A stretch of DNA of 64,000 nt from Psychroserpens ponticola (GTDB lineage: Bacteria > Bacteroidota > Bacteroidia > Flavobacteriales > Flavobacteriaceae). This document shows, piece after piece, positions 1-24,182 of the stretch. Position numbers and translations under genes: made by a program. The first letter of the stretch is position 1. Each line of letters opens with the position of its first letter. Location: positions 2,429,001 to 2,493,000 of the forward strand of contig NZ_CP116221.1 of NCBI RefSeq assembly GCF_023556315.2, written 5' to 3'. The notes beneath the pieces are model-generated. The model had not been told where the DNA came from. It saw only the letters and a program-made list of their open reading frames with translations, and ran no database searches.

Positions 1-326
1 TCTCTTTTATGCTTCTATTTTTGTCTACAAGTATCTCAGCATATTCTTCTGTGTCATCGGCAGAAATGATTAGCCTATCTAACATTTCATTTGCAGCATT
101 TTTTGTAAATGTAATTGCTAGAATATTGCTTGGATTAACACCTTTTTCTTCAATTAGATATATCAGTTTTGAAGTAATGTTTTAGTCTTACCTGAGCCAG
201 CGCCAGCTAAAACTAACAGTCTTCTGCATTCGCTTACAACTGCTTGCCTTTGTTTTTCATTAAGGCCGCTTAAATCAGTTTTTGTTTCTCGCACAGATTG
301 TGTTTTTTTCTGTTATTTGCCAAATT
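1..326 (-). pseudogene. UvrD/Rep-type helicase N-terminal fragment, frameshifted
   Basis: Read on the minus strand, this encodes a typical superfamily 1A helicase start: a Q-motif-like stretch (LNEKQRQAVV), Walker A (LAGAGSGKT) and motif Ia (ILAITFTKNAANEM). The rest runs off the left edge. The frame is broken at a short T run near 168-171: one extra base joins Walker A to the downstream reading frame. It is broken again at the seven-T run 303-309. No ATG in the proper frame was found upstream, where a boundary repeat begins. I read it as a decayed, 5'-truncated helicase gene. Two single-base assembly errors in homopolymers are the alternative, although the roughly 10 kb genes elsewhere in the window are unbroken. 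Confidence 0.7.
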
Positions 327-330
327 TGTT

Positions 331-463
331 GCCAACGTGTTCCTGTATGACTAGTTGTGTTGACTAGGTCTAAGTTAATAAAAGAAAACGAACCTGAGGA
401 AAACCCGCTAGGATTTTCCGAGTATACAAAGAATAAATGTTTAATTATACACGTTGTTAGCAG
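331..463 (-). repeat. Cassette-boundary repeat, copy 1 (imperfect palindrome)
   Basis: The outer ends are inverted relative to each other: GCCAACGTGTTCCTGTAT at 331-348 and ATTATACACGTTGTTAGC at 445-462. An internal stem pairs GGAAAATCC with GGGTTTTCC. The core at 372-425 matches 3554-3605 (the second copy) over most positions, including the shared block AAAAGAAAACGAACC. The stop codon of the neighbouring gene fragment (441-443) lies inside it. Palindromic elements that overlap stop codons resemble the attC sites of integron cassettes in layout. The exact attC consensus boxes are not clearly present, so the mechanism is unknown. Confidence 0.6.
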
Positions 464-694
464 CTGGAATAATTTTATTAATTACAATTCTATGTTCTTT
501 AGTATCTGGTAATGCAATTCCGCCTTTTGTTTTCTTTCCAACTGGCATGTTTGAAATAACTTTCATAGTTGCCAATAAAGCTCCTGAAGTATCAGATTTT
601 ACTTGATTCCTATCAAATAGAGATCCATTTTTTTTGAAGTTACAACAGAACTCGTTTCTCCTTTTGCTTCTATATTCAAAATGTGATACTTATT
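441..694 (-). pseudogene. C-terminal fragment of a possible nuclease/toxin, frameshifted
   Basis: Two minus-strand frames joined at the eight-T run 628-635 give one sensible peptide. It contains the stretch HILNIEAKGETSS, then NGSLFDRNQVKSDTSGAL, and ends in KIIPAANNVYN. The E-A-K triplet followed by a Q/S/T-rich helix recalls PD-(D/E)xK-fold nuclease domains, including restriction-like toxin domains. That assignment rests on a very short motif. A stop codon lies just upstream (695-697) and there is no start, so this is the truncated and frameshifted end of a gene. Its stop lies inside the boundary repeat. Function is not established. Confidence 0.4.
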
Positions 695-800
695 TCATTT
701 ACACAATTGTGTACAACGGGATTTTATATTGAAAGTAGCCGGTTTTTAAGTACTAATTTTCAATCTATAATGGATTTGTATTTTATTAAGTATAGTTCAT

Positions 801-3089
801 TTAAGCGCCTAAACCTCTATTTTTTTTTGCTTTGTTGTGTTTAAGACTATCAATGTTAAATTCCTTAATTAAATCTTCTCCATTTTTTTCCGTAAATGAG
901 TTATTTAATATTTCTTTAACTGACTTGATATAATAATCTTCTAATAATTCTAACTTATTATTAATACCTTTATTATAATCAAAGTATTCATAATCTTCTT
1001 CGATTCGAAATTCTCTTTTTAAAAATATTTGGCAACTATTCAAGATATTTAAGAACATTAAATTCGGATTATCGTCATTCAATGGTGTATAATGTCCGTT
1101 TGACTTTAGACAAAACGTTTTTCTATAATGGATAAACCAATCTTTGTAACCTTTATTTATTAGTTTAGTTTTAATGCTGTTTAGTCCGTTTAAATGCATA
1201 TGAGCCATATGAGCTAACAATCGTAAAAAAGCATAAATAGTTTTTACAGTAATAGGTTGAATATCATTAAAATTAAATCGTGAACCATTTACCTTAATCT
1301 TACTTGAGCGCATTTGAGAAATAATACTAATAAATTTCAAATGGGAATAACTTATAAGATAATAAGCTCTTGGTGTAATTGATATTTCATCTTCAAGTTT
1401 TATATCGTTATAAGAATTGATATCAATAAAATGAGATAATTCGATTATACCTTTGTCAAAGTTCAAATGAGAGTCTTTAATAAGATAAAATATTCTCTGC
1501 TTGATAGTTTCTTCATCATAACCTAAATCTTCTAAATTTTTTACAACAAGCGAAACGTATGTTTTTCTATCGAACGAAAAATCGCTCCTAACTATTGTTT
1601 GTTTACTTAAATTAAAAATAGATATTAAGATTAGATGATCTAAACTGCAATCAAGAGCGTTTTTATTACCTTCTAACCAATTTTGAACATCTTGAGGTAT
1701 GTTATATATATCTTGAGGTATAAATATACCTTTAGTATTAGACCATCCATAAAAGTATGATTCCAAAATGAATTGTTGTCTATCTCTATTTGAGTTAAGC
1801 AAATCAATTTTTAAATTTATTTCTTCTTTAAGATAATAAATAAAATTGATTATGTTAATGAGCATTTCTCTTCGGTCATAATTACTTAAATCTAAAAATG
1901 CGACTCTTAATTTTTCGGTATCCAATAATAATTTAGAATAACTTTCTAACTCTTTAACACTTTCAATATGAATTGTTTCATTTTTATTTTGTGACTCAAC
2001 TTTTTCTGTCGTTGAAGAATTTACATATTTTTTTATAAAATCAATTCGTTGTTCGTACATTGATTTTGCAAATTTTTCTTTTCCCGTTTTTAGTAAATCA
2101 CTTTCGATTTTTACTTTTTGGTCTGCTGAACAAAAACCATTTTGATTGATTATTAATTTTACTTTGTCATCAAATATTTCCTCATCAATGAAATCTTTGT
2201 AGTCTATTGAGAATTCTTGAACTATATACGAACCTATATCACTCAATCCGTTAATTGAAACATTTTTAGAACGAATTGAAATTATACTTTTTACAGAAGA
2301 TTTTAATACGCTTTGATATTTTCGAAAAAACACACAAAACTCATCTCTAATTGAATTATCAATTATACTATCAACATTGTCAAATGATAAAACACATTGC
2401 TTATCCAATTTAAATGAGATGTACCTAAAATAATTATTTGGTTTTAATGAATTTGATAGCTTTAGAAATAAACTTCTAAATTCTTCAGATTTACTTTCAT
2501 TTCTTTGCGTGCGGAACCATTCAATAAAGCTCTCTTGTGAATTAACTTTTTTATCAAAGTCAAAGATACTTTGTAACTTCCTAAAAATTGTTATGAATTC
2601 AGGGTTATCAAAGTCTTCTGAATATAAATAATCTGATTGTTCCACCAGGAAATCTACTATTGTATTATCAGTAATATTAATTGTGTTAAAATACGACTGT
2701 AATTTTGTTGTTAAATACTTTTGAATAAAATTTGATAGTGATTCATATTTAGAATTGGACTCATCATTGATTCCAGTGACTTTCTTAAAATCAATATATA
2801 AAGAATATATATTCCCTTCTTCTACTAGACTATGTAGTACTTTTCGCAAAATTGTAGTTTTACCTGTGCCAGGATTTCCTAAAATTACAAGTTGAGCTTG
2901 ATCTTTTCTTATTTCCTTTAATAATTGTTGTTCTTTTTTTACTCTATTTAAATATATTTCAGAAAAAAAAGTGCTTTCATTCAAACCAATATCTTTCGTG
3001 ATACTAAATCTGTTTTCATCACTATACTCGTCTACAGCATAAGTAATTGTAGATTCGAAAACACTAAAACTATAATCTCTTTTATTCAT
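801..3089 (-). CDS. P-loop NTPase (AAA/STAND-like), second gene of a two-gene cassette
   Basis: This is a 762-residue cytoplasmic protein without signal peptide or membrane segments. A Walker A motif (GNPGTGKTT, residues 71-79) and a Walker B-like strand (VLSFDNVD, about 233-240) are followed by a sensor-like strand SIISIRSKN near 270, as in AAA+ or STAND ATPases. The remaining roughly 450 residues are helical, rich in Lys/Asn/Ile and unrecognised. Its start overlaps the stop of the upstream membrane-protein gene by 8 bp (ATGAATAA), so the two are translationally coupled. An NTPase paired with a small membrane protein between cassette repeats fits a phage-defence or stress-abortive module, but that is inference from layout. 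No named defence family was recognised. Confidence 0.75.
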   Translation of the reverse strand: MNKRDYSFSVFESTITYAVDEYSDENRFSITKDIGLNESTFFSEIYLNRVKKEQQLLKEIRKDQAQLVILGNPGTGKTTILRKVLHSLVEEGNIYSLYIDFKKVTGINDESNSKYESLSNFIQKYLTTKLQSYFNTINITDNTIVDFLVEQSDYLYSEDFDNPEFITIFRKLQSIFDFDKKVNSQESFIEWFRTQRNESKSEEFRSLFLKLSNSLKPNNYFRYISFKLDKQCVLSFDNVDSIIDNSIRDEFCVFFRKYQSVLKSSVKSIISIRSKNVSINGLSDIGSYIVQEFSIDYKDFIDEEIFDDKVKLIINQNGFCSADQKVKIESDLLKTGKEKFAKSMYEQRIDFIKKYVNSSTTEKVESQNKNETIHIESVKELESYSKLLLDTEKLRVAFLDLSNYDRREMLINIINFIYYLKEEINLKIDLLNSNRDRQQFILESYFYGWSNTKGIFIPQDIYNIPQDVQNWLEGNKNALDCSLDHLILISIFNLSKQTIVRSDFSFDRKTYVSLVVKNLEDLGYDEETIKQRIFYLIKDSHLNFDKGIIELSHFIDINSYNDIKLEDEISITPRAYYLISYSHLKFISIISQMRSSKIKVNGSRFNFNDIQPITVKTIYAFLRLLAHMAHMHLNGLNSIKTKLINKGYKDWFIHYRKTFCLKSNGHYTPLNDDNPNLMFLNILNSCQIFLKREFRIEEDYEYFDYNKGINNKLELLEDYYIKSVKEILNNSFTEKNGEDLIKEFNIDSLKHNKAKKNRGLGA

Positions 3090-3462
3090 TTCTTTTTGAT
3101 TCTATTATATCGAGAATATTTTCTTTTTTAATTCTTGCAATTTCAGATTTTTTTTTATCAGTTGAAATGTATTTTTCTTCTTCTTTAGAATAAATGGTTA
3201 ATAAAACTGATAGTGTATTTAAGTCTTGTGAATTAGCAATATGCAAACTGTTTTTTTCTATTTCTTTTTGTTGTTGAAAAATAGTGTAAATCAATCCGAC
3301 AAATGCTAAGCCAGAAAATAAGGCATTAACAGCACCAAACATATCTCCAATTTGTCCTCTAACTGCAAAATCATCAGTATAACAAATTATTAGATAGCCA
3401 CTAATTGCCCAAAGAAAAAGGACAAAAATTAAAAGTGTTATTATTTGAATTGAATTCCTCAT
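3082..3462 (-). CDS. Small two-TM membrane protein, first gene of the cassette
   Basis: This 126-residue protein has two predicted membrane helices (about residues 6-27 and 41-62). The connecting loop and second helix carry the stretch RGQIGDMFGAVNALFSGLAF. A charged cytoplasmic-looking tail (about 63-126) is rich in Glu and Lys and probably forms a coiled coil. Short proteins with a G-x-x-F-G-x-x-N-A/P-L-F-S hairpin are common as accessory genes in bacteria. From memory they often sit in mobile or defence-type contexts, which I could not verify here. It lies directly upstream of, and overlaps, the P-loop NTPase gene. A membrane-effector role for the pair is an inference. Confidence 0.7.
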   Translation of the reverse strand: MRNSIQIITLLIFVLFLWAISGYLIICYTDDFAVRGQIGDMFGAVNALFSGLAFVGLIYTIFQQQKEIEKNSLHIANSQDLNTLSVLLTIYSKEEEKYISTDKKKSEIARIKKENILDIIESKRNE

Positions 3463-3509
3463 AGTTTTTAGATTTTATAATTATGTTAATCAGTACAGAT
3501 TTTAAGCTT

Positions 3510-3640
3510 GAACACATTTTTTTCGAGTATGATTTGTTGCTTTGGCATTAACTAAGTTAGCAAAAGAAAACGAACCGGAGGAAATTCCTGCGGAATCTCC
3601 AAGTAGACGATAACCAAGCCATTGGCTATACAAGTTGCTA
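3510..3640 (-). repeat. Cassette-boundary repeat, copy 2
   Basis: This is related to the element at 331-463, in the same orientation and of nearly the same length. The shared core (3554-3605) includes AAAAGAAAACGAACC and a GGAGATTCC/GGAATTTCC stem around GCA. The right end (TATACAAGTTGCTAGCA, 3627-3643) contains the TAG stop codon (3638-3640) of the DUF2971 gene. The left end is more diverged (GAACACATTTTTTTCGAGTATG). Copies 1 and 2 bracket the fragment at 441-694 and the NTPase/membrane-protein pair. Confidence 0.6.
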
Positions 3641-4429
3641 GCAAACACTTTTATGTTCTTTAATTTCAATATCTCCAATGTTATTTCTAATCGAATTAAT
3701 TATTTCAGTTCTGTCAGATTCATTCATATTCTTACCTAGAATTATACAATTAAAAGCTTCTTTTGGAAGTGGAATTTGTCTGTCAGACATTGTTGCTGGA
3801 TGTTCCCAAAATTTTTGAGTTCTGTATTCTTTTTCGAATTCCCACTTTTTTTCTTTGTAATAAACTTGTTTCCATCTCATTTCTTCTCGACTCATAATTG
3901 GATCAGGTAATAAAATAGGCAATTCATTCGGATATTCAACTTTTCCACCACCACCAAGAAAATTAAATAGTATTCGTGAATTATAACCTACACAAAAACC
4001 AGAATGATTGTTAGCATATTTTTCCCACATTGAATCTAAACAATTTTCTGCTGTGAGACTTAAAATACCTAATCTTTCAAAATAGCCTTTGAAATATTTT
4101 TTTTGATAATTTTCATTAAATTCAGGATTCAAATAATCTTTTTTATCTAATAATTCTCTTACTCTTTTCCTTTTTTGTTGTCGGCTTAAATTTTCGTCTA
4201 AATTTGATATTCGTGTATAAACTGATTTTGCTTGTTCTGCTGACATTAAATCGTATCTAACAGGTGATTTGCAATCAAGCTTATCTTCGAATTGATTTGG
4301 TGAAGCCATGAAAACTTCTCTTTCAATAATAAACCTCTTATTGAATTTATTATTCCAATCACGATATTTAAAGAGAATTTCTGGAAATTCAATATGGTCT
4401 AAAGTCTTAAATATAATTTCTTGTTTCAA
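3638..4429 (-). CDS. DUF2971 family protein
   Basis: This 263-residue soluble protein has the hallmarks of DUF2971. It has an N-terminal LFKYRDW followed by MASPNQFEDKLDC, and a central block LDSMWEKYANNHSGFCVGY (about residues 131-149) matching the family's conserved W-x-x-Y-A-x-x-H-x-G-x-C pattern. DUF2971 proteins are widespread in accessory regions and phage-related islands, and their biochemical role is not established. The start used is TTG at 4429. No in-frame ATG is near, and the conserved N-terminal motif begins soon after. The start lies about 5 bases from the half-repeat GCTAACGTGTTATATG and the stop is inside a boundary repeat, so the gene fills its cassette almost exactly. Confidence 0.8.
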   Translation of the reverse strand: MKQEIIFKTLDHIEFPEILFKYRDWNNKFNKRFIIEREVFMASPNQFEDKLDCKSPVRYDLMSAEQAKSVYTRISNLDENLSRQQKRKRVRELLDKKDYLNPEFNENYQKKYFKGYFERLGILSLTAENCLDSMWEKYANNHSGFCVGYNSRILFNFLGGGGKVEYPNELPILLPDPIMSREEMRWKQVYYKEKKWEFEKEYRTQKFWEHPATMSDRQIPLPKEAFNCIILGKNMNESDRTEIINSIRNNIGDIEIKEHKSVC

Positions 4430-4433
4430 ATGT

Positions 4434-4450
4434 TCGCTAACGTGTTATAT
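4434..4450 (-). repeat. Half of a cassette-boundary repeat
   Basis: The sequence GCTAACGTGTTATATG, read on the minus strand as CATATAACACGTTAGC, matches the outer end of copy 1 (CATACAGGAACACGTTGGC). No matching core follows to the right, so only one end remains. It marks the upstream boundary of the DUF2971 cassette. Confidence 0.45.
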
Positions 4451-4870
4451 GTGGATAAAACAGTCATAAATCCTTTCAAATATTACTAAAAAGACGACTC
4501 TTTATTTCATAATTAATTTCAAAATATATTGTTAATCAATTCTTACATAATGACGCTTATAAGTTATAGGGTAACTTATAAATAAGTAAACTTTTTCTAC
4601 ACCTCTTTAAGTAAAGGAGATAGAGACTTTATGTTCCTCTTTTTTTATTATGCGTCAACAAGAATTATATAAAAGGGAGTTTTTAAAGATATAAAAAAAC
4701 TTTAGGATTCAATAAAAAGTTAAAATATTTTTTGAATTTTATTTCTAGCTGTCAAGCAGTTAGAATATATAAGCTACTATTATATACTAAAATTTCAATC
4801 TTCAAAAATTAAAAACATCAAAATTTTCACTTATATTTGATTACGATTAATTACTAATTATTATAATAAC
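4451..4870. other. AT-rich intergenic stretch, no gene seen
   Basis: About 420 bp between the DUF2971 cassette and the tRNA-derived att-like site. It is very AT-rich, with stop codons in all frames and no recognisable protein remnant or RNA. Confidence 0.5.
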
Positions 4871-4871
4871 A

Positions 4872-4904
4872 AGTGAACACAAAACTGAACACGTTTTGGA
4901 ACAC
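4872..4904. promoter_or_regulatory. Tandem GAACAC boxes beside the att-like core
   Basis: Three GAACAC hexamers start at 4875, 4887 and 4899, exactly 12 bp apart, about 80 bp before a tRNA 3'-half. Two such boxes recur beside the second tRNA remnant (13448 and 13459). Regularly spaced short direct repeats next to a tRNA-derived core are typical of arm-type sites for tyrosine recombinases. No integrase gene was found nearby. Confidence 0.45.
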
Positions 4905-4978
4905 GATTAAGAATACGATGAATTTTTAAGTGATTTCAAATCAATCAATTACGATTTAAAAAAGCTCTTTTTTTAAAA

Positions 4979-5021
4979 TTCATAACCCAGAGGTCACGAG
5001 TTCAAATCTCGTTCTCGCTAC
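4979..5021 (+). repeat. 3' half of tRNA-Met (CAT), att-like site copy 1
   Basis: The sequence begins in an anticodon loop (ttCATaaccc) and continues through the variable loop (agaggtc). It includes a complete T arm (ACGAG-TTCAAAT-CTCGT) and the 3' acceptor strand (TCTCGCTA). The D arm and 5' acceptor strand are missing, so it is not a functional tRNA. tRNA 3' halves of this kind are left when integrative elements insert at a tRNA gene. A diverged copy lies at 13488-13522. Confidence 0.75.
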
Positions 5022-5029
5022 AACAGTGA

Positions 5030-5059
5030 AAGTCTAGTATGAAAGTACTAGACTTTTTT
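5030..5059 (+). terminator. Rho-independent terminator after the tRNA remnant
   Basis: A perfect 10-bp stem (AAGTCTAGTA / TACTAGACTT) with a TGAAAG loop is followed by a T run. It is probably the terminator of the original tRNA transcription unit, carried along with the att-like site, because a degenerate version also follows the second copy. Confidence 0.7.
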
Positions 5060-5161
5060 ATGTGTTACGCTTAAAGCTCGCTTTATAGTGGATAAGATCG
5101 AGACTGCGAATGATTTAGCTAAATATACTGTATGTTCATTTTATTTGCGCATTTCTATTAC

Positions 5162-5251
5162 TTAAGATCTCATGATGTGCTTACCACGAAGATCGTTGGC
5201 GATATTCCAGAGGGCATGTTTAAGTACAGCTTGTTTTTGGTCTTAGGACAT
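5162..5251 (-). pseudogene. Remnant of a type I restriction HsdM N-terminus
   Basis: Minus-strand translation from ATG at 5251 gives M-S-stop and then DQKQAVLKHALWNIANDLRG before a second stop at 5162-5164. The block LWNIANDLRG matches the start of HsdM methylase subunits of type I restriction-modification systems, where an N-terminal helix typically reads LWxIAxxLRG. Only about 27 residues remain, with an internal TAA. It is a remnant showing that an R-M locus once stood here. Confidence 0.55.
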
Positions 5252-5521
5252 TGATTGGTTTTGAGTTAAAAAACATTTAAAATAAGCTGTGATATTACAT
5301 AAAAATACCACATGAAAACACTAAAATTATTAGCTTTGTTATGCGATGCGGAGGTTTAACTTTAAGTCGCTTTGCACCAAAGTATAGTTCCTGTTGGACT
5401 GTATCCCTCAAGGCGATGGCTTTGGTGTTTTTTTATTAGTTTTATTTTTAACTGATTGGTCCTAAAACACCTCTGCTTTTACGATGGATATATTAACGAA
5501 ATCCATAATGCAAGAAACATA
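5252..5521. other. Intergenic remnant DNA with a hairpin and a tiny leader-like ORF
   Basis: A 15-codon plus-strand ORF at 5312-5359 (MKTLKLLALLCDAEV) looks like the start of a lipoprotein signal peptide cut short. It may be a gene remnant or chance. An 8-bp stem (CACCAAAG at 5375-5382, CTTTGGTG at 5420-5427) followed by seven T looks like a long-loop terminator on the plus strand. No other gene is supported. Confidence 0.35.
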
Positions 5522-5896
5522 TTAATGTTGATAACACCTACCATCAGCATTTTTCGTTTTGCGCTTACAACGCTTACCTGCTTGGGTTTTACCAGTGCAT
5601 TGTGTTGCTACAGCTTTTTTTGAAGGTGCTTTACCTTCAGCTTTGTAAACTATTGCATTAGCCTCAGCATCTGAACTCGCTTTTGTATTTTCTTTGGTTG
5701 GTTTACACACACCACAGGCTGAGAAACCTAATGTTATTGCTTTATCTAAGGTAAGTTCTTTTTTAGAATACTTAAGATATCTACATGTGCTTTTATGATA
5801 CTTCTCTCCTGTTTTTGTGGTATACACTGTTTGTGCTAACACATTAGTAGAAAATGCAATAGACACTATAAATAATATAAGTCTTATCTGTTTCAT
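5522..5896 (-). CDS. Small secreted Cys-rich protein with DUF5763-like tail
   Basis: The 124-residue product starts with a clear signal peptide (about residues 1-21, ending VLAQ). A compact Cys/His module follows (CRYLKYSKKELTL, then ACGVC), resembling the small zinc-binding fold seen in Ada-type domains. The C-terminus (CTGKTQAGKRCKRKTKN, then GRCYQH) matches the DUF5763 / basic adaptor pattern C-x-x-x-T-x-x-G-x-x-C-x9-10-C-x-x-H. It is probably an exported, metal-binding protein; its role is unknown. It lies 37 bp downstream of the PorP/SprF-like gene on the same strand and may be co-transcribed with it, although neither the functional link nor a terminator in the gap is evident. Confidence 0.75.
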   Translation of the reverse strand: MKQIRLILFIVSIAFSTNVLAQTVYTTKTGEKYHKSTCRYLKYSKKELTLDKAITLGFSACGVCKPTKENTKASSDAEANAIVYKAEGKAPSKKAVATQCTGKTQAGKRCKRKTKNADGRCYQH

Positions 5897-5933
5897 AGTT
5901 TTCTCTTTTTATTACTCATCATAAGTCATCACA

Positions 5934-6935
5934 TCATCGTTTCCTACTACGATCTGTGTTACATCTACGACATCTAGAAAGATAAGTTAAAGAAAACTCG
6001 TAAACACCTCTTGTGTTTCCAATCTTGGAGGTGTTCATGTCATAGGATAAACCAAATCTAAATTCGGTATATTCTAAACCAAAAAAGGCATTTATGGACG
6101 TTAACATATGGCTGTTATCAACATTACGAGCAGGATTTGTAGCTGCAGTTAGTCCTACAAGAAATTGATTAACGTGAAAAAGCGAACCAATATCAAAGCG
6201 ATTATATTGTCCTTGTTGCATATAATTAACAGTCATCATAATACTATAATCATTCATGAAAGGAAACCGATAATTTCCATGTATCGAATAGAATATATTT
6301 AAGGGCACCTTCTCACCCTCTACAAAAGACACATTTGGTCGATTTAAATGTTTTACAGATGCACCAAACCAGTAGGTAATGCCATTAAATTCTTTTTTTT
6401 CAAAAACAATTCCAGTTGAAAAGTCTAAGAAGTAACGATTTCTTGTATTATTACTTAATGGATCTACAGAAACTGAACTAATTTCACCTGTATTAATATT
6501 TATTTGATCTGCTAAAGTAAGATTGCCAAACTGATTGCTTTTACTGCCAACACCTACTTCAATACCAGGTCTAAAAAACCAGCCACCATCTAAATTAACA
6601 CGATGTGCATAATTGGCATTTATCTGGGTGTAATTGTAATTATTGAACGTTTCATGTTGCCAAATGGCATTAAGACCTACTCCAAAGCCTAGACTTGGCC
6701 CATAATCAAAAGATTTATTTACAAATGCATATTGTGTTGTTAAGTTTAAGTCTAAACTAGGCCATTGCAAACGACTTAAAACACCAGCATAAATACGCTC
6801 GTTATCTTCAAACCCTGAAAACCCTGGATTTAAAGTTTCTTGAACATAATTGGATTGTGAAAAAATAGGATCTTGTGCTTTTACTGAATATACGATTGCA
6901 AAGAATGCTATAGTGAGGATTGTTTTTAAATTCAT
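5934..6935 (-). CDS. PorP/SprF family type IX secretion membrane protein
   Basis: The 333-residue outer-membrane beta-barrel protein has a signal peptide (MNLKTILTIAFFAIVYSVKAQ). The PorP/SprF hallmark follows at the mature N-terminus: QDPIFSQSNYVQETLNPGFSG. SprF-type proteins are needed for secretion of SprB-like adhesins with type B C-terminal domains through the T9SS. The start at 6935 is preferred over an ATG 33 bp upstream, because that one would put eleven extra residues before the signal peptide and overlap the adhesin gene. With this start, the gene begins 10 bp after the adhesin stop, so the two form an sprB-sprF-like operon. The C-terminus is Arg/Cys-rich (SRCRRCNTDRSRKR), unusual for a barrel end. 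Confidence 0.9.
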   Translation of the reverse strand: MNLKTILTIAFFAIVYSVKAQDPIFSQSNYVQETLNPGFSGFEDNERIYAGVLSRLQWPSLDLNLTTQYAFVNKSFDYGPSLGFGVGLNAIWQHETFNNYNYTQINANYAHRVNLDGGWFFRPGIEVGVGSKSNQFGNLTLADQININTGEISSVSVDPLSNNTRNRYFLDFSTGIVFEKKEFNGITYWFGASVKHLNRPNVSFVEGEKVPLNIFYSIHGNYRFPFMNDYSIMMTVNYMQQGQYNRFDIGSLFHVNQFLVGLTAATNPARNVDNSHMLTSINAFFGLEYTEFRFGLSYDMNTSKIGNTRGVYEFSLTYLSRCRRCNTDRSRKR

Positions 6936-6945
6936 TCTAATTAGA

Positions 6946-9900
6946 TTATTTAATAAATACAAAAGCACCTTGTTGATTAATTACATCGTCATAGAATGTA
7001 CTGGCAGAAAACGTGTAATAGTAATTTCCATTCTCGGCTTCCTCTTCATTAACCTTACCATCCCAACCTCGTATATCGTCGCCAGATTCGGAATAAATGA
7101 GACTTCCCCATGTATCGTATATATTAAGTTCTAATCTGTTTAATCCAATATACTCAGGACCAAAATAATCGTTAAGATTATCTTGATTTGGTGTAAAAGC
7201 ATTTGGCATGATGAGTTTGTATCCTTTTTCGACAATTAGTGTGACTACTTTGGTATACACACAGCCAAAAGGATAGGTCACTGTTTGAGTTACAACATAG
7301 TTTCCTACTTGTAAATACGTATGTGTTGGGTTTTCATCTCCTGTAAAACTACCATCTCCAAAATCCCATAACACACTTACATAGTCACCAGTTGCAGTAT
7401 TGGTAAATTGAATAGGGTCTTGGATAGCAAAAATGCCATAATTAGTAGAACCGAACGAAGTTGTTTCAAAATCGGGATCTCCAAGAACAGGCGTTTCCAC
7501 ATTGAAATCATAACTAATTGAGCAGCCTAAACTATCTGTCACCTCTAAAATGACTAGACCATTTTCATCTGTCGTCATCAGTTCATTATTTAAACCACTT
7601 ACTATTCCGCTAGACCAGTTATACATAAAAGGAGGCACTCCTCCACTGGCTACTGCAACAAATGTTTGATCTACTGTGTGCGCTTCACAATCTACTTCAG
7701 ATTGTGTATCGACTTGAAGTACTAAAGGTTCAAACCTACTAACATTCCAACTTCCTTCGATATCACAACCATTAGCATCAGTAACGACAACAGTATAATT
7801 GTTAGGAGGCACATTTTCTAAATCTTCAGCTGTAGTGCCATTAGACCAAACCACATCAAAAGGAGGCGTACCACCTTGAATCAATAAATTAATAGCACCA
7901 CTATTCGTATCCTCACAATCGAGCGCATTGGTCACATTTGCTGATACTTGTAGTGGCAGAATATCAAATATGGTAAAGCTATCTTGAATTGTACAAGGTT
8001 TGCCATCGGTTATCGTAACAGAATAGGTACCAGGTGCTAAATTATTACGCTCTACACCTGCTGAAGCATCATCATCCCAAACTACAGTTACAGGATCGAT
8101 TCCTCCTTGAAAATTAAGTATTATACTTGCATCATTCTCGCCAGAACAAGACATTTGAGTTACGACTGGATCTATTAAAAATATAGGAGGTTCATTGATT
8201 ATAATAGGAAAAGCTTTAGAGCAGTTTTCGGCATCTGTAATTGTTATGGTATAAGTTCCTCCTGATAAATTGGTTTGACTATTTCCTGTTCCGAAGTTAC
8301 TCCAAGCAATAGTATAAGGTAAGACTCCACCAGAAATATTGTTGATTGTTATGGACGCATCATTATCACCATAACATTCAATTTCTGTAGCCGTAACATC
8401 AATCATAATTTCATCATTTTGAATGATTACAACCTCAAGAGTATCTATACAATTAGATGCATCGATTACTTCAAGTTGGTAGGTTCCTGCTGATAAATTA
8501 TCAATGTTTTGATTTAAACTTGTAAAGCCATTTGGCCCAACCCAACTAAAGATATAATCTGGTCGCCCTCCAGTTATACTAACTTCAATTGCACCAGTAG
8601 ATTCATCAAAACATAATACATTAGTTTGAATATCTAATGTCACCTCTAAAAGTGGAGGCTCAACGATTGAAAAACTTTGAGTTATTGGTCCGCAATTATT
8701 ATCATCAGTTACTGATATTTCATACGTTCCAGGAGCTAAGTTTAAGATATCCTCGTCTGTGGAAAATGGCAACCCGTTTAACGTCCACGTGAACGTATAT
8801 GGTAAGGTTCCTCCTTCAATAGAAATACCTATTTCACCATCATTAGCTCCAAAACATGAAATCGTCTCTGGGTCAAAATCAATAGCACTAAACACTAATT
8901 CATCAGGTTCAGTAATGGTAAATGTTTCAGAATATGGACAACCACCATCATCTTCTATATTTAAGATATATGTTCCTATCTCAAGACTAGAGATATCTTC
9001 ATCTGTGCTAGAGAATCCATTTGGGCCAGTCCAAATAATGTTATAAGGGTTTCCTGTTGAGAATGGTACTCCTCCAACTATTGCAATTTCAATAGATCCA
9101 TTATTCGATTGAAAACAATTATTATTTGTTGCATTAGATGTTACTGAAATTGAAGGATTGACTGTTACCACGACTTCAAAATCGGCTCCAATACAATCTC
9201 CAGATGTTGGTGTAACAGTATATGTAACAGTAGCTGGATTTGTAGTGGTATTAATTAATAACTGAGAAATGTTTGACGTATCTGTTAATTGTTCTGTTGC
9301 GCCTGTAATACTTCCTGCTGGATTAATAATTGGTGTAGTCCAAGTATAGGTTGTATTTGCAGGAACAACATCTCCGTTAGACGTATCTGGAATGTATTCG
9401 AATGAATTATCACTACATATTAAAACATCAGCATCACTAATACTTGGTGTTACATTAATAATTATCTCTGACACCTCTGAACTAATTTCAGAGCAACCGC
9501 CTGAACTTAGTGTAATTATACAATAGTAATAGGTCGTTCCAATGGCACTAACATCAGGACTGTATGTGGAAGTAGTTGCACCTGCTATAGGAACTCCAGA
9601 AGTTATATCATTCGTTATATTTTCATACCATTGATATGTTGGTGTACCAGAACCATTTACATAAGACACCGATAAATCTGCAGTCGTTTCACCTAAACAT
9701 AATTCATCTGATATGGGCTGACTTGTAAATTGTGCAGCTGCTGTTACCTCAACTTCACTTATTGAACTGGTAACTTCACAACCTGATACGTCTTGAGTGA
9801 TGATGCAATAGTAAAACAATGTTCCAACTACTGTTGTTGGAGGCGCAAATAGATTAGATGTTTCACCTGCAATCAATGTTCCGCCTACAGTGGAATTAGT

Positions 9901-12711
9901 TGTATTTACATACCATTGATACGAAATGTTACCCAAACCATTTGAAATAGTAACTTCTAAGTTTATAGGTATTGAATTTTGACATAAACTTTGAGACGCT
10001 TCTGGTTGATTAGTTACTATTGGATCGTCTACAACGATAACTTCTGCGACATCACTTACTAAATTTGAACAACCACTTACTCCATAATTAATTTCTACAT
10101 AAAAATAATAGGTTCCAGATGATGTAAAAGCAGAAGGTGTGAATGTTGCATTTGTAGCACCTGCAATAAGGGTTCCGCCAGTATTACTGTTTGTTAAATT
10201 ACTATACCATTGGTATGTTGGAATACCTGCTCCTCCAGTAGTCGTTATTGATAATTCATCAGCCAGACCACCAACACAAATGGATTGCGTACTAATAGGT
10301 TGTGTATCAATTTGAGACACTTCTTTAACTTCTATTAATGCTGTTTCAGAAATGATTTCATTACAACCACCAGTTGAAAACGTAATGATTATATAGTAAT
10401 ACGTATCACCGACTGTATCTGTTGGAGGAGAAAATGTTTGAGATGTAGCACCTGCAATAGGAGTGCCTGTAGCAGTATTATCAACAGTATTTTCGTACCA
10501 TTGATAATTTGGAGTTCCTGTACCTTGATAAGCAACTGTTAAATCTAGAGTTGTACCATTAAGGCAAACTTCATCAGGTATAGGTTGTACCGTTATAATA
10601 GGAGCAGGTTCTATTATAATACTAAAATCAAGAGAAGCTCCGATACAACTACCAATTTGTGGTGTAACTGTATATGTAAGTGTTATCGTACCGTTCGTTG
10701 AATTTATTAAAGTTTGCACTGGTATTTCATCTGTTACTCCTGAAGTCAAAAACCCAGTTAATCCTGAAGGGTTATTAGATGTCCAAGTATATGTTGTATT
10801 AGCTGTATCAGACATTAAGTTTATAGCAACTGTATCTGCACCAGAACATATGGTTTGACTGACATCTGTATTAGTGATTGTAGGCACTGGTGAAATTACA
10901 AACTCTTCAATATCTATATGTGTCCCACAACTGTTAGACACTTCTAAACTCAAAATATAGCTGTTAGGTGTATTAAAATTAATTTCAGGAAATTCAGAAG
11001 TTGCATTAGTACCATTTATAAATTCCCAATCAGTGGGAGACACGCCAACATCAAGACTCCAATTATAAGTTACCATATCTGGACCACAACTAACAACGGT
11101 AGATGTTGGCGAAACTAATGCTGATGAACCACAAAAATCTATTATTTCAGAAATCTCTGCTTGAGGTGGCGATTTAACAAATATTTCTTGAGGTAAACTA
11201 GTCGTCACTCCACATGAGTTTGTTCCTTGAAGAATAATTTCATAAGTTCCAGAATTTGTAAATTCAATTTCTGGAGTTTCAGAATTAGCAGTTGTACCAT
11301 TAATAAAATTAGCACCACTTGTTGTACCACAAAAACCTGGAATATAATTAATAACCCATTCAAAAGTTGGTACTCCGCATTGATCTGTTAAATCTGTAGT
11401 GTTATTAAAAACACTAGTGTAAGGTGCACAACCTTCTATATTATTGACAGTATATTCAGGGGTTAAAGGTGCTTCTACACATATTTCTTGTGTGACAGGA
11501 CTGGTTTGTCCGCAATAATTTACCGCATATAGCGAAATTGTATAAGTGCCTGGAGTTGAATAAGAATGGGTAGGTTCAAAATCAGTATAAGATGTTCCAT
11601 CACCCATATCCCAAAACCAATCAACAACAGTACTACAGCCAGGGTTATAACCACTGCTAGAAGTGTTACTTATTTGTATATTTTCATTGACACACGTAGA
11701 ATCTTCAGCATCAAAACTCACTTCTGGTTTTTCAAGAATGGTAATTGGTCCTGCTGTTAGATTAGAAGTTCCACATGATGTTATTATGTCTAAAAGAACG
11801 GTATAACTTGAGTTTGGACAATTAGATGCTGTATAAGCATGTGGAATTGGATAATCTATCGAAGCTGCTGGGTCAGAACTGTTGTAATATGTTGATGATT
11901 CTAATTCACTTTGTGTTAATACAAAAGTTGTACCATCACCAAAATCTATATCATATATAGTATCTGGAGGGTTTAATCCCCAATTACTTACAGCAAATTC
12001 TAATGGCACAATAGGCGCACACAAATCTACTGTAGCTCCAGGTGTTACTATACCTCCAGTCGGATTGCTAGAGTTTTTTACTGTATACGTAATTTGTGAA
12101 TGGCAACCATTAGCTCCAGTAGCACTAATCACCATATTAAATGAACCAAGACTCGTATAAGTATGCGTTATAGGAAAAGACACATTATTCTCAGAATTTC
12201 CATCACCCCAATTAATAGAATAAGAAGTAACACAGCTATCTGAACTTGAAGTATTCCCTACAGAAACTGTATACTCTATTGCAGCAGCATTACAATTTTC
12301 AAATGGAACACCAAACCCTGCATTAAGATCTTCAAAACTAATATTTGGCTTTCTTTTTACAGTTACGGTATGTGAAATATTAGTAGAATCTCCGTTGTCA
12401 TCAGTTACTGTTAGAGTTACATTAAAAGTTTGAGTTCCTCCACATCCAAAAGTCTGAAATGCATGATTAGGGTTTGGTTGTGTAGATGTTGAACCATCTC
12501 CAAAATTCCATTCATAATCAAAAGGACCATCACCTGTTACTGTAGAAGTAAAAGATATACTTTGTCCTGAGCAAGTATTATTATTGTTGAATGTAAAATC
12601 TACTACTGGAGGAGCAAATAAAGATTCCTCATACTTTATATTAAAAGCAATTGCCGAAGTTACTAGAATAAAAAAAGTAATTCCTAAATAAACATATTTA
12701 TTGTTCTTCAT
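6946..12711 (-). CDS. Giant T9SS type B surface adhesin with PKD, Ig-like and SprB-type repeats
   Basis: This 1921-residue cell-surface protein begins with an N-terminal membrane/signal segment. Several PKD-type domains follow (residues about 35-420; motifs such as WNFGDGS and WDMGDGT). Next are poorly defined Ig-like domains, then four Ig-like units marked by YQWY and YYY (about 720-1090). Seven SprB-type repeats come after (about 1190-1720; pattern C-x-G-x-x-D/N-G-x-I, GG-x-x-P-Y, W, L-x-x-G-T-Y, T-D-x-x-x-C). A last PKD domain (LWDFGDGSF) precedes the gliding-motility-type C-terminal domain (IMPNAFTPNQDNLNDYF, then GWDGKVNE and GAFVFIK), which is the T9SS type B signal. Family knowledge ties such proteins to gliding or surface adhesion. 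It is the first gene of an operon with the PorP/SprF protein. Confidence 0.92.
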   Translation of the reverse strand: MKNNKYVYLGITFFILVTSAIAFNIKYEESLFAPPVVDFTFNNNNTCSGQSISFTSTVTGDGPFDYEWNFGDGSTSTQPNPNHAFQTFGCGGTQTFNVTLTVTDDNGDSTNISHTVTVKRKPNISFEDLNAGFGVPFENCNAAAIEYTVSVGNTSSSDSCVTSYSINWGDGNSENNVSFPITHTYTSLGSFNMVISATGANGCHSQITYTVKNSSNPTGGIVTPGATVDLCAPIVPLEFAVSNWGLNPPDTIYDIDFGDGTTFVLTQSELESSTYYNSSDPAASIDYPIPHAYTASNCPNSSYTVLLDIITSCGTSNLTAGPITILEKPEVSFDAEDSTCVNENIQISNTSSSGYNPGCSTVVDWFWDMGDGTSYTDFEPTHSYSTPGTYTISLYAVNYCGQTSPVTQEICVEAPLTPEYTVNNIEGCAPYTSVFNNTTDLTDQCGVPTFEWVINYIPGFCGTTSGANFINGTTANSETPEIEFTNSGTYEIILQGTNSCGVTTSLPQEIFVKSPPQAEISEIIDFCGSSALVSPTSTVVSCGPDMVTYNWSLDVGVSPTDWEFINGTNATSEFPEINFNTPNSYILSLEVSNSCGTHIDIEEFVISPVPTITNTDVSQTICSGADTVAINLMSDTANTTYTWTSNNPSGLTGFLTSGVTDEIPVQTLINSTNGTITLTYTVTPQIGSCIGASLDFSIIIEPAPIITVQPIPDEVCLNGTTLDLTVAYQGTGTPNYQWYENTVDNTATGTPIAGATSQTFSPPTDTVGDTYYYIIITFSTGGCNEIISETALIEVKEVSQIDTQPISTQSICVGGLADELSITTTGGAGIPTYQWYSNLTNSNTGGTLIAGATNATFTPSAFTSSGTYYFYVEINYGVSGCSNLVSDVAEVIVVDDPIVTNQPEASQSLCQNSIPINLEVTISNGLGNISYQWYVNTTNSTVGGTLIAGETSNLFAPPTTVVGTLFYYCIITQDVSGCEVTSSISEVEVTAAAQFTSQPISDELCLGETTADLSVSYVNGSGTPTYQWYENITNDITSGVPIAGATTSTYSPDVSAIGTTYYYCIITLSSGGCSEISSEVSEIIINVTPSISDADVLICSDNSFEYIPDTSNGDVVPANTTYTWTTPIINPAGSITGATEQLTDTSNISQLLINTTTNPATVTYTVTPTSGDCIGADFEVVVTVNPSISVTSNATNNNCFQSNNGSIEIAIVGGVPFSTGNPYNIIWTGPNGFSSTDEDISSLEIGTYILNIEDDGGCPYSETFTITEPDELVFSAIDFDPETISCFGANDGEIGISIEGGTLPYTFTWTLNGLPFSTDEDILNLAPGTYEISVTDDNNCGPITQSFSIVEPPLLEVTLDIQTNVLCFDESTGAIEVSITGGRPDYIFSWVGPNGFTSLNQNIDNLSAGTYQLEVIDASNCIDTLEVVIIQNDEIMIDVTATEIECYGDNDASITINNISGGVLPYTIAWSNFGTGNSQTNLSGGTYTITITDAENCSKAFPIIINEPPIFLIDPVVTQMSCSGENDASIILNFQGGIDPVTVVWDDDASAGVERNNLAPGTYSVTITDGKPCTIQDSFTIFDILPLQVSANVTNALDCEDTNSGAINLLIQGGTPPFDVVWSNGTTAEDLENVPPNNYTVVVTDANGCDIEGSWNVSRFEPLVLQVDTQSEVDCEAHTVDQTFVAVASGGVPPFMYNWSSGIVSGLNNELMTTDENGLVILEVTDSLGCSISYDFNVETPVLGDPDFETTSFGSTNYGIFAIQDPIQFTNTATGDYVSVLWDFGDGSFTGDENPTHTYLQVGNYVVTQTVTYPFGCVYTKVVTLIVEKGYKLIMPNAFTPNQDNLNDYFGPEYIGLNRLELNIYDTWGSLIYSESGDDIRGWDGKVNEEEAENGNYYYTFSASTFYDDVINQQGAFVFIK

Positions 12712-12746
12712 AACCTATTGCTGATTAATCTTTTACATTAATTTTT

Positions 12747-12814
12747 CAATTTATACTAATAAAATCTATGAAAGGATCTTTTTCGATAAACGAATCTAAT
12801 TATCGATTAATTCA
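12747..12814 (-). promoter_or_regulatory. Tandem direct-repeat operator and promoter of the type B adhesin operon
   Basis: On the minus strand, TGAATTAATCGA (12803-12814) and TTCGTTTATCGA (12783-12794) share the ATCGA core and are 20 bp apart. A weak -7-like TATAAATTG lies at 12747-12755, about 36 bp after the start of the proximal repeat. This is the most diverged of four similar repeat pairs upstream of the surface-protein genes. Confidence 0.4.
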
Positions 12815-13447
12815 TTATTTGATTCTTTTCTTAAAAAAAATCAAGATCAGATAATCAAATTTTTAACTGTTTGAAGTTAAAAACTACCCTATTAAATCGT
12901 TTGAGATTCCTTAAAATAACATTAATAAAAAGCACTCATATAAATAAAAGCAATTATACTAGGAAACAATAGCCATATAATTGCTAGTTTAATAACCTTA
13001 AGTGATTTGTTATTTCTTTTAAGTATCTTTTTTATTTTAATTGGTACTATTTCAATATGATCTAATATTCGACAAACATAAATCTATTCAATAGTTTTAC
13101 TTTGCCGAAAACCGTAAACTCAATAATGAAATAATCATAATTATTAGCTAAATCTATTTTTGATTCTTTTCAAAAAATCAACTCGAAATCTAATTATAAA
13201 AAAAATTATTGCACATACCCAATATTAGGTATATTACTAAAGTCTATATTAATCCAAAATCTTTAGCCGTGGAGACTAAATGAATGAGATTATTTGCTTT
13301 AAATTGTATACGTAATTTATTTAGTATTCAACTAGATTTAATTAAAATGTAAAAATGCCACCAACTCAATATATTATTAATTTATAAAATTGACACCCTC
13401 AACTATCAATATTATATTTAATCTAAGATTTATTATTTATAACTAGT
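12815..13447. other. Intergenic stretch with a possible short membrane-protein remnant
   Basis: Mostly AT-rich non-coding DNA. A minus-strand open frame at 12922-13084 lacks an ATG but encodes a basic stretch followed by a hydrophobic helix (IKLAIIWLLFPSIIAFIYM). It may be the tail of a lost gene or chance. The segment 13389-13445 resembles 13950-14000, just upstream of the next giant gene (shared TTGACaCCCTCAA / TTGACtCCCTCAA and downstream TTATTATTTAT), which suggests a duplicated upstream region. Confidence 0.3.
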
Positions 13448-13487
13448 GAACACGTTTGGAACACGACTAAGTATAAAGTGAATTTTT

Positions 13488-13522
13488 CCAGAAGTCACGA
13501 ATTCAAATCTCGTTCTCGCTAC
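13488..13522 (+). repeat. Degenerate tRNA-Met 3' end, att-like site copy 2
   Basis: The segment ccagaagtcacgaa-ttcaaatctcgttctcgctac matches copy 1 (4987-5021) with two substitutions (G to A) in the variable loop and T stem. The anticodon portion is missing. GAACAC boxes (13448, 13459) and the sequence after the tRNA end (caacagtgaaagtctagta) are also shared with copy 1, so the two sites are homologous direct repeats 8.5 kb apart. Confidence 0.7.
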
Positions 13523-13529
13523 AACAGTG

Positions 13530-13562
13530 AAAGTCTAGTACGAAAGTGTAGGACTTTTTTTA
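13530..13562 (+). terminator. Degenerate terminator after the second tRNA remnant
   Basis: AAGTCTAGTAC and GTGTAGGACTT form a weakened stem (three G-T pairs and one mismatch) around a GAAA loop, followed by seven T. It is the diverged counterpart of the perfect terminator at 5030-5059. Confidence 0.5.
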
Positions 13563-13879
13563 TATACTATTTGTAGAGCCTGCTCTTAATAATTATTATA
13601 AAGAGATATCATTTCTTAAACATAACTAATAATCCTAATTTATAATTAAAGTTACTCTTCAGGTTTCCAATAACATTTAACCTCCTTTCAACCAATAAGA
13701 TAGCAATTAAACGTTTTTATTTTCATACAAAGTATATAATTGCTCTTAATCGAGTTTTCTATTATAACATATACAATTTTATTAATTTTAACGAATTAAT
13801 TTACAGGATGTTACCGCAATAACCTCTGTAATTCTATATAAACAACAAATAGTAATTACGAAAAATCTACATTTTAAAT

Positions 13880-14058: not shown

Positions 14059-17000
14059 ATGAAAAAAAGTTACTTCTTGTTAATTCAATGTTTAATTGCT
14101 TTAACTTTTTCTATAAGTTTAACTGCTCAAAACGAGTTTATAACAACTTGGAAAACAGACAATCCAGGTACTTCAAATGCTACATCGATAACCATTCCAA
14201 CTGTAGGAGGAGGCTATAATTATGATGTAGATTGGAATGACGATGGTATTTTTGATCAATTTGGAATTACTGGTGGTATTACTCATGATTTCGGAACTGC
14301 CGGAATTAAAACGATACGAATACGAGGTGCTTTTCCAACAATTCATTTCAATTTTGGTGGAGATAGAGAGAAAATTCTTGAAGTAAATCAATGGGGAACT
14401 ATTGCCTGGAACACTATGTATGAATCATTTAGCGGGTGTATTAATTTACAATTTAACACCTACCTCCCTTTTGATGCACCAGATTTAAGTAATGTGACCT
14501 CTATGCGCGATATGCTAAGAAACACTACTAATTTCAATAGTCCCATAGGTCATTGGGATGTGTCAAATGTTACTAATATGTCAAATATGTTAGGTTTCGC
14601 AAGTGCTTTTAATCAAGATATAAGTAGTTGGGATGTGTCTAATGTTACTAATATGTCAAGGATGTTTAACGCTGCAACATCTTTTAATCAAGATATAAGT
14701 GGTTGGACTACTTCTAGTCTGACTTTTATGAGTGGTATGTTTTTTACAGCATCTTCTTTTAATCAAGACTTAAGTAATTGGGATGTGTCTAATGTTACTG
14801 GTATGCGTAGCACATTTAGGAATGCAACTTCTTTTGATCAAGACTTAAGTAATTGGGATGTATCTAATGTTACTGATATGCTAACGATGTTTGAAAATGT
14901 TACACTCTCGACCCCAAGTTATGATAATATGCTAATCGCATGGAATAACTTAACTCTGCAAAACAATGTTAATTTTGACGGAGGAAATAGTAAATACTGC
15001 TCGGTTGCCGCAACAAATGCTAGAGCTAATATGATAGCTTCAGATGGCTGGTCAATTATTGATGGAGGAGTAAGCCCACCTATAGCTATTTGTATTTCTG
15101 CTCCTTTTACAATCAACTTAGATGCTAGTGGAAATGCTATATTATTAGAAAGTGATATTGATGACGGATCTAATACTTGTGGTAGTGGAACATTAGGTTT
15201 AAGCTTATCTCAAACAGCTTTTACTTGCGCAGATATAGGAAGTCATATCGTAACCTTAACCATTGATAATGGCAATGGAAATACCGATACTTGTACAGCT
15301 ACTGTTAATGTTGTTGATAATATTGCACCAACTCCAGATGCTGTTACTTTGACTGATGTTACTACCGAATGTGAAGTTACAACTCTAACACCTCCTACTG
15401 CTACTGATAATTGTAGTGGAACTATTACCGTTACAAACAACGCAACGCTTCCTATTACAGCACAAGGTACTACGACTATTATATGGACCTATGATGATGG
15501 CAATGGAAACACGGTTACACAAAATCAAAATGTCGTTATTGATGATATAACTAACCCTATTCCTGATGTGGCTACTTTAGCTAATGTAACTGCCGAATGT
15601 GAAGTTACAACTCTAACACCTCCTACCGCTACTGATAATTGTAGTGGAACTATTACTATTACAAACAACGCAACACTTCCTATTACAACACAAGGAACAA
15701 CAACTGTCACTTGGACGTATGATGATGGCAATGGAAATACAATTACTCAAAATCAAAATGTTGTTATTGACGATATAATGAATCCTATTCCTGATTTTGC
15801 AACTTTAGCTAATGTCAATGCGGAATGTGAAGTTACAGCTCTAACACCTCCAACTGCTACTGACAATTGTGGAACTGTTACTGTAACAAACAATGCAATG
15901 CTTCCTATTACGACTCAAGGGATTACAACCATTACTTGGACGTATGATGATGGCAATGGAAATACAGTAACTCAAAATCAAAATATTGTTATTGATGATG
16001 TAACGAATCCTATTCCTGATGTGGCAACTTTAGCCGATGTAACTGCAGAATGTGAAGTTACAACTCTAACACCTCCTACTGCTACTGATAACTGTGGAAC
16101 TGTTACTGTAACAAACAATGCAATGCTTCCTATTACGACTCAAGGTACTACAACAATTACCTGGACCTATGACGATGGCAATGGAAACACGGTTACACAA
16201 AATCAAAATGTTGTTATTGATGATATAACGAATCCTATTCCTGATGTAGCTACTTTAGCTGACATCACTTCTGAGTGTGAAGTTACAACTCTAACACCTC
16301 CTACTGCTACTGATAACTGTGGAGGAACTGTTACAGTTACAAACAATGCCACACTTCCTATTACAACTCAAGGGACAACAATTATTACTTGGACATATGA
16401 TGATGGCCACGGAAATACGGTTACTCAAAATCAAAATATTGTTATTAATGATATAACGAATCCTATTCCTGATGTGGCTACTTTAGCTGATGTAATTGCA
16501 GAATGTGAAGTTACAGCTCTAACACCTCCTACTGCTACTGATAACTGTGGAACCGTTACTGTAACAAACAATGCAATGCTTCCTATTACGACTCAAGGAA
16601 CTACAACTATTATATGGACGTATGATGATGGAAACGGAAACACAGCAACTCAAAATCAAGATGTTGTTATTGATGATGTGACTAATCCCATTCCTGACGT
16701 AGCTACTTTGACAGATGTAACTGTCGAATGTGAAGTTACAAGCTTAACACCTCCTGCTGCTGCTGATAACTGTGGAACGGTCATTGTAACAAACAATGCT
16801 ACACTTCCAATTACAGCTCAAGGGACTACAACTATAACATGGACGTATGATGATGGTAATGGAAATACAGTAACTCAAAATCAAAATATTGTTATTGATG
16901 ATATAACAAATCCTATTCCTGATTTGGCAACTTTAGCTGATGTAACTGCTGAATGTGAAGTCACTTCTTTAATTCCTCCAACCGCAACTAATAATTGTGG

Positions 17001-23886: not shown

Positions 23887-23923
23887 TTATTATGTGACTT
23901 AAAAGAATAATTTTATTTCAAAT

Positions 23924-23982
23924 AAAAAGAGCTTTCGTTTTATAACATCCTTAGGATCATTTATAAAATAGAAGCTCTTTTT
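23924..23982 (+). terminator. Terminator of the HYR/LamG giant gene
   Basis: AAAAAGAGCTT (23924-23934) pairs with AAGCTCTTTTT (23972-23982). An inner TTTTATAA/TTATAAAA stem extends the hairpin, and T residues follow. It lies about 40 bp after the stop codon. Confidence 0.7.
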
Positions 23983-24083
23983 AATATTATTTACGACTTC
24001 AAAATCGATATAAACAAAGTTAAATCATAACAATTTAGTTTAATATTTTATATGTAATTGAAGTCCAATTCATAAAATTTTAT

Positions 24084-24143
24084 GCATTTCATCGGTTTTA
24101 TATGCATTTTGCAGATGTTTTATTAAAATATATGATATATTTG
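24084..24143 (+). promoter_or_regulatory. Tandem direct-repeat operator and promoter of the carboxypeptidase gene
   Basis: GCATTTCATCGG (24084-24095) and GCATTTTGCAGA (24104-24115) are exactly 20 bp apart within TATGCATTT repeats. A -7 box TATATTTG is at 24136-24143. The repeat-to-box distance is 32 bp here, against 21 bp for the 26817 gene and 44 bp for the 14059 gene, which are steps of about one helical turn. Confidence 0.6.
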
Positions 24144-24182
24144 CTGTAAGATTAAACCCAAATCTACCTAAATTCTAAACCG

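Follow-up and report, generated by a model that had tools for sequence, protein, structure and literature searches.

The DNA analyzed here (the window) is a 64,000-nucleotide stretch of the genome of Psychroserpens ponticola, C1:2429001-2493000 of 4.03 Mb (genome G000). Near its left end lie two partial copies of a tRNA-Met gene, site 1 and site 2, and between them an operon that encodes a SprB-type adhesin and its SprF partner (Table 1). The two copies form a direct repeat of 73 bp with 90% identity (4987-5059 and 13488-13560; 8501 bp apart). Site 1 is identical to tRNA-Met at 48 of 48 bp, from the anticodon loop (ATTCATAACC) to 3 bp beyond the acceptor end (E value, 3e-18), and site 2 matched site 1 over 73 bp in a search of the whole genome (E value, 3e-22). 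The repeat sequence was found at three places in the genome only, namely, the intact tRNA-Met, site 1, and site 2; the leftover weak match covered 24 bp in the T arm of a tRNA-Thr. The intact gene was identified by ARAGORN at C1:2407209-2407283, about 21.7-21.8 kb to the left of the window; it has the same orientation as site 1, lies 26.7 kb ahead of it, and contains the 48 identical bp at C1:2407240-2407287. Site 2 has lost the anticodon-loop part and about 50 bp preceding the tRNA part, with 29 bp between the last strong GAACAC box and the tRNA part versus 79 bp at site 1. The terminator hairpin of site 2 is decayed as well (-9.1 versus -15.5 kcal/mol). Because of these losses, site 2 appears older than site 1. 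These findings agree with a preliminary description of the window, in which both repeats had been recognized as the T arm and 3' acceptor part of a tRNA-Met with a trailing terminator, copy 1 intact from the anticodon onward and copy 2 degenerate, and in which wide scattering of such fragments through the genome would have spoken against an integrative element.

A search of the genome for an intact tRNA-Met with a tyrosine recombinase nearby, which the same description had proposed, recovered both. The integrase open reading frame (C1:2407338-2408717; 459 amino acids) starts 54 bp past tRNA-Met, and its product matches the integrases of PHROGs (E value, 9e-30) and, just under the cut-off, Pfam family PF00589 (E value, 7e-6). 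Residues R303, R401, H431, and Y440 are invariant, and the histidine of the HxxR motif is Y398 in this protein; the catalytic roles of these positions are presumed. A strong terminator hairpin (C1:2407284-2407340; -15.3 kcal/mol; z score, -5.1) reaches as far as the start codon of the integrase gene, and given this position, the integrase may be made solely by read-through from the tRNA promoter. The integrase family was found in 48 of 299 sampled Flavobacteriaceae genomes (44 of 236 genera). A tRNA-Met, of elongator or initiator type by sequence, stands beside the integrase gene in 22 of the 29 family loci that were fetched, and a bare core does so in six of the remaining seven. No member of the family was found in viral contigs, and matches in phage and plasmid records reached 27-28% identity only (28% in phages); a phage or plasmid origin of the family was rejected on these grounds. 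No relative with a solved structure was found by sequence search at an E value of 0.01, and the AlphaFold model of the integrase was unusable (mean predicted local distance difference test score, 37). Site 1 is the distal right attachment site (attR) of a 26.7-kb element that begins at tRNA-Met, element A. This autonomous element lies to the left of the 8.5-kb segment between the repeats (segment B) and mostly outside the window.

GAACAC boxes had been noted upstream of both sites, and a search of 146 kb around the locus for paired GAACAC motifs with a spacing of 10 to 13 nt located them only in front of sites 1 and 2 and at the start of the integrase gene, all on the plus strand. The left boxes are in-frame codons 11-22 of the integrase gene (EYDLEHDSEHDL; EHDLEHDSEHDL in relatives), and the right boxes lie about 55-80 bp ahead of the distal core. 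At 27 of the 29 family loci, the core stands 87-91 nt before the terminator and integrase start, and at least two boxes are present in the first integrase codons. Furthermore, left and right boxes agree element by element (GAACAC/GAACAC, GCATAC/GCATAC, GTACAC/GTACAC, and GTAAAC/GTAAAC) in the 17 elements with both ends readable, which come from several Flavobacteriaceae genera. The mean agreement was 15.5 of 18 for an element's own pair versus 13.9 overall, and 0 of 100,000 permutations reached the observed sum, kinship among the elements being uncorrected in this comparison; a reduced set of 10 elements left the result unchanged. Because left and right boxes covary, and with lambda-type integrases in general as the model, our preferred reading of the GAACAC boxes is that of presumed arm-type integrase-binding sites. 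Integrases of such type normally require arms on both sides. Matches to a profile of the right end were confined to tRNA-Met arrays. We found no report in the open-access literature of arm sites inside integrase codons, or of the locus itself, which is no proof of absence. The unusual part is an integrase family with presumed arm sites written in its own codons. Should the integrase prove to bind these boxes, sequence alone would suffice to locate the ends of elements and pair them with their integrases, and the natural GAACAC, GCATAC, GTACAC, and GTAAAC classes would offer a test of arm-site specificity.

The START-like gene adjoining tRNA-Met is kept in 34 of 37 relatives searched. The site is empty in four relatives (G019, G013, G004, and G015), where a host-type terminator comes after tRNA-Met and leads directly into the native adhesin-hisS region. 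In P. ponticola, the flank of the present tRNA-Met is element-type (mean score, 28.0 to element ends and 4.8 to host flanks), and the flanks of sites 1 and 2 are host-type (19.3 and 20.2, respectively, to host flanks and about 8 to element ends). When element A was removed in silico, the tRNA 5' half joined to site 1 was closer to the locus in seven of seven relatives tested than the present arrangement is. Occupied sites differ in the number of insertions: G005 has four serial attachment (att) copies, at 1724051, 1756853, 1797248, and 1833387, with an integrase gene after each of the first three, and G008 has a single element of 33.9 kb.

Because an intact tRNA and an integrase lie upstream, some relatives have an empty site, and others carry tandem arrays of their own, tandem integration at tRNA-Met is confirmed, and decay after it is supported. 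The explanation that we favor, and hold to be highly probable, is that tRNA-Met is the attachment site of this tyrosine recombinase family, that element A inserted there last, and that segment B is what remains of an element of this family inserted before it. The integrase would cross over at some point in or near the anticodon loop, and each incoming element would bring a tRNA 3' half and a terminator with it, which would keep the gene whole and shift the previous 3' half outward. Element A, which carries the integrase, type I restriction-modification, and other defense genes, would be the newest arrival, with site 1 as its attR; segment B, with SprF and SprB, would be the relic of an older element whose attR was site 2. 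In this process, the GAACAC boxes would serve the integrase as arm-type sites, the left set within its gene and the right set before the distal core. Element A may be mobile at present, and the junction of its circular form is predicted to read right boxes, core, CGGTTTAG terminator, and integrase start. Segment B would have lost its integrase end and would be mobile, at most, through accretion with element A or its like. Under this explanation, the repeat pair would mark a defined hotspot, the integrase acting there would be defined as well, and the spread of anti-phage defense genes and type IX-secreted adhesins would be tied to one tRNA gene. A decayed tandem integration at a tRNA gene had been proposed before; the att series, the integrase, and the relatives uphold this proposal, but the autonomous element is the 26.7-kb element A and not the 8.5-kb segment.

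The adhesin operon is patchily distributed, with a SprF homologue in 7 of 23 Psychroserpens genomes, that of P. ponticola included, and it occurs in several unrelated contexts. It is att-bounded in three genomes of the genus. In G012, which lacks element A, tRNA-Met and an att copy 8.8 kb away enclose SprF, SprB, and a gene for a 124-amino-acid protein. In Psychroserpens burtonensis (G016), SprF and SprB are enclosed by two att copies; next to the left copy, the terminator of an element and the start codon of an integrase gene remain, with the rest of that gene missing, and the right copy has arm boxes. Because of this patchy presence, the unrelated contexts, and the three att-bounded cases, we favor the view that the operon is probably mobile at genus scale. 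Its linkage to these elements is repeated, not constant. The earlier suggestion that the adhesin operon may have arrived or been moved as part of an integrative element holds in part: the distribution and the three att-bounded copies speak for it, and the right-end signature, the only one that segment B has, and the off-site copies speak against it. In the comparison with relatives that had been proposed alongside, the site was empty and the operon missing there in the four relatives named above, and the operon lay away from the site in G020, G011, and G001.

The presence of the SprB-type adhesin and its SprF partner between the repeats was borne out by domain matches (Table 1). An HsdM remnant, also named in the preliminary description, went undetected in segment B with the HsdM of element A as the query. 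A 147-bp stretch is found there instead (5314-5460); it is 81% identical to C1:2422294-2422442, upstream of hsdR in element A, and short pieces of it also occur in G012 and G009. Segment B can be compared with a cis-mobilizable element (CIME), as defined in PMC7563491. Like a CIME, it is flanked by att sites at both borders, shares its tRNA gene with an adjoining element that bears an integrase, and has no recombination or transfer genes of its own; unlike a CIME, it has a host-type left end and not a deleted element end, its right end being element-type, so that its derivation by deletion from an integrative and conjugative or integrative and mobilizable element is at most putative. Because integrase-less remnants are common in tandem arrays (PMC7563491), decay is preferred, and segment B is likely a decayed, CIME-like element remnant, at best a remnant or a cis-mobilizable cassette.

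Several observations weigh against the explanation that we favor. The integrase has a tyrosine in place of the histidine of the HxxR motif, so that the activity of the enzyme is not to be assumed. Segment B itself has no integrase and no left arm boxes, and no integrase remnant was found in 5060-5522 by tblastn or six-frame reading; an autonomous 8.5-kb element between the repeats is thereby ruled out. The left flank of segment B, on the side of site 1, is host-type for about 110 bp, which is unexpected because an element-type flank should result when this integrase inserts an element. A host-like left end was also seen in integrase-less segments of G012, G020, and G014. In G008, the operon is in the native interval past attR, where the right-end profile revealed no second att; nor did this profile give an att signature for the off-site operon copies in G020, G011, and G001. 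The left end of segment B could have formed by one of three routes: loss of the integrase end via recombination that copied the displaced host flank, movement as a distinct type of cassette, or a native origin of segment B with a moved site 2.

The last of these routes, which we regard as rather unlikely, is nevertheless the best placed of the alternatives. It holds that the operon belongs to the interval between tRNA-Met and hisS and that site 2 is a leftover attR or duplicated tRNA end, moved beyond the operon by rearrangement. The host-type left flank agrees with this, as does the G008 operon just past attR, and adhesin genes, differing between relatives, are present in the interval of most of them. 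In G007, tRNA-Met is followed by a further two short copies of its 3' end and terminator (C11:69493-69903; spacing, 165-187 bp) with no element between them, which likewise agrees with this route. However, site 2 has arm boxes besides the tRNA end, the operon is att-bounded in G012 and in P. burtonensis, in the latter with the left end of an element, and it is missing from this place in the four empty-site relatives. The off-site operon of G020, moreover, is a close copy (91%) located elsewhere.

Somewhat less probable still is that segment B represents a non-autonomous type of cassette, composed of adhesin or defense genes, right arm boxes with a core, and a host-like left end, and moved in trans by resident integrases. 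Four segments share this anatomy, those of P. ponticola and G012 with SprB, that of G020 with the adhesin gene adh1, and that of G014 with 23 kb of defense-like genes, but their ends vary between species, and all four are possibly remnants. The tRNA-Met of G020 (C7:236912) has a T arm unlike that of close relatives, and the displaced copy 14.6 kb off (222282) keeps the relatives' version; the 3' half has apparently been swapped by integration, as if by such a cassette. Against this reading, left arm boxes are missing, arms on both sides being the norm, and no circular form was seen. We consider it equally doubtful that integrase-less cassettes of this anatomy, with giant adhesin or defense genes, are moved in trans between species into tRNA-Met by resident integrases, with surface adhesins exchanged at one tRNA gene. 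Segmental duplication of the tRNA-Met region, with no site-specific recombination, can be set aside as very improbable: sites 1 and 2 share the 18 bases right after the tRNA end, but each has the 3' half only, element right-end boxes precede both, an integrase lies at the tRNA, and relatives have other cargo between equivalent sites.

Among described systems, the 10K island of Riemerella anatipestifer at tRNA-Arg has a tyrosine recombinase at the tRNA 3' end, and its excision has been shown (PMC6764341). It resembles element A in having an integrase by the tRNA, flanking direct repeats, and an empty site in other strains or relatives. The family of element A, known here from sequence, differs from it in the target (tRNA-Met or tRNA-fMet), in a core that starts at the anticodon loop, and in left arm boxes within the integrase gene. 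The nearest described case for the latter is KplE1, in which attL with its arm sites overlaps the promoter and control region of the integrase gene (PMC2951348). In KplE1-type prophages and element A alike, the integrase gene faces away from the tRNA and arm-type sites lie near its start; in element A, unlike KplE1, the presumed arm sites are codons that come after the ATG, and phage structural genes were not recognized.

Table 1. Features of the left part of the window (window positions) and loci of a recurrent gene module in relatives
Feature	Position	Strand	Remark
Element A, right-hand part (defense cargo)	1..4977		Left end at tRNA-Met, outside window
STAND/AAA NTPase-like protein, element A cargo	801..3089	-	Weak Pfam matches
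DUF2971-like protein, element A cargo	3638..4429	-	
Presumed right arm boxes of element A	4873..4918	+	GAACAC at 4875, 4887, 4899; variant GAATAC at 4911; ~12-bp period
Site 1, core of the element A attR: 3' half of tRNA-Met, anticodon loop onward, + 3 bp	4978..5025	+	Identical to intact tRNA-Met
Host-type tRNA-Met terminator hairpin, presumably displaced by element A	5024..5062	+	
Segment B, integrase-less, att-bounded likely remnant with adhesin operon	5063..13447		
124-amino-acid protein (Cys-rich protein of the preliminary description)	5522..5896	-	Relatives beside operon in G012, inside element in G005
PorP/SprF family protein	5934..6968	-	PorP/SprF, E value 1e-36
SprB-type adhesin, 1921 amino acids	6946..12711	-	PKD domains, SprB repeats, CHU_C type IX secretion signal
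Presumed degenerate right arm boxes of segment B	13447..13475	+	GAACAC at 13448, 13459
Site 2, presumed decayed attR core: tRNA-Met 3' part without anticodon loop	13488..13526	+	
Decayed host-type tRNA-Met terminator	13524..13564	+	Native side of junction
Response-regulator module in relatives	G016:C25:45833-49510; G020:C2:60743-64289; G014:C3:118583-122237; G020:C7:218574-221982; G012:C221:18694-21047		

The cargo of element A includes defense genes. A PDC-M01 pair with an AbiJ/PtuA-like ATPase was identified by PADLOC, and two GmrSD-type proteins and the type I proteins HsdS, HsdM, and HsdR are encoded as well; beyond the hsd genes come an RNase H gene, a UvrD-like gene, and, within the window, the genes for the STAND-like NTPase and the DUF2971 protein. 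The UvrD-like helicase gene is split by an IS3-type transposase pair (C1:2425728-2429085, ending in window positions 1-85). Two small conserved genes follow the integrase gene in P. burtonensis, P. damuponensis, and G005. With a recombinase beside an intact tRNA, a tRNA 3' repeat at the far border, and an empty site in relatives, element A has the anatomy of a tRNA-targeted mobile genomic island. No relaxase or type IV secretion system was found among the element A open reading frames scanned with Pfam, and the conserved frames o27 and o28 had no informative match. With no conjugation or mobilization genes recognized, its identification as an integrative and conjugative or integrative and mobilizable element was not supported; nor was a prophage identity, as no structural genes were recognized and the integrase family is absent from viral contigs.

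On the other side of site 2, two more giant adhesin-like genes (about 3275 amino acids each; window positions 14059-23886 and 26817-36641) occupy the native interval between tRNA-Met and hisS, and the right-end profile found no third att between adh1 and the gene for an 816-amino-acid protein (23887-24182). A recurrent module, encoding a response-regulator-like protein of 221 amino acids and a second one of about 550 amino acids, mostly with a third gene of 186-261 amino acids, lies beside SprB or just distal to an att site in several relatives (Table 1). A second element of the same family is present in P. ponticola outside the window, at the initiator tRNA-fMet (C1:493166-510091; 16.9 kb). 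Its att copy is identical over 51 bp, GAACAC boxes are found at both of its ends, and its cargo includes a beta-lactamase-family protein, an amidohydrolase, and an AraC regulator.
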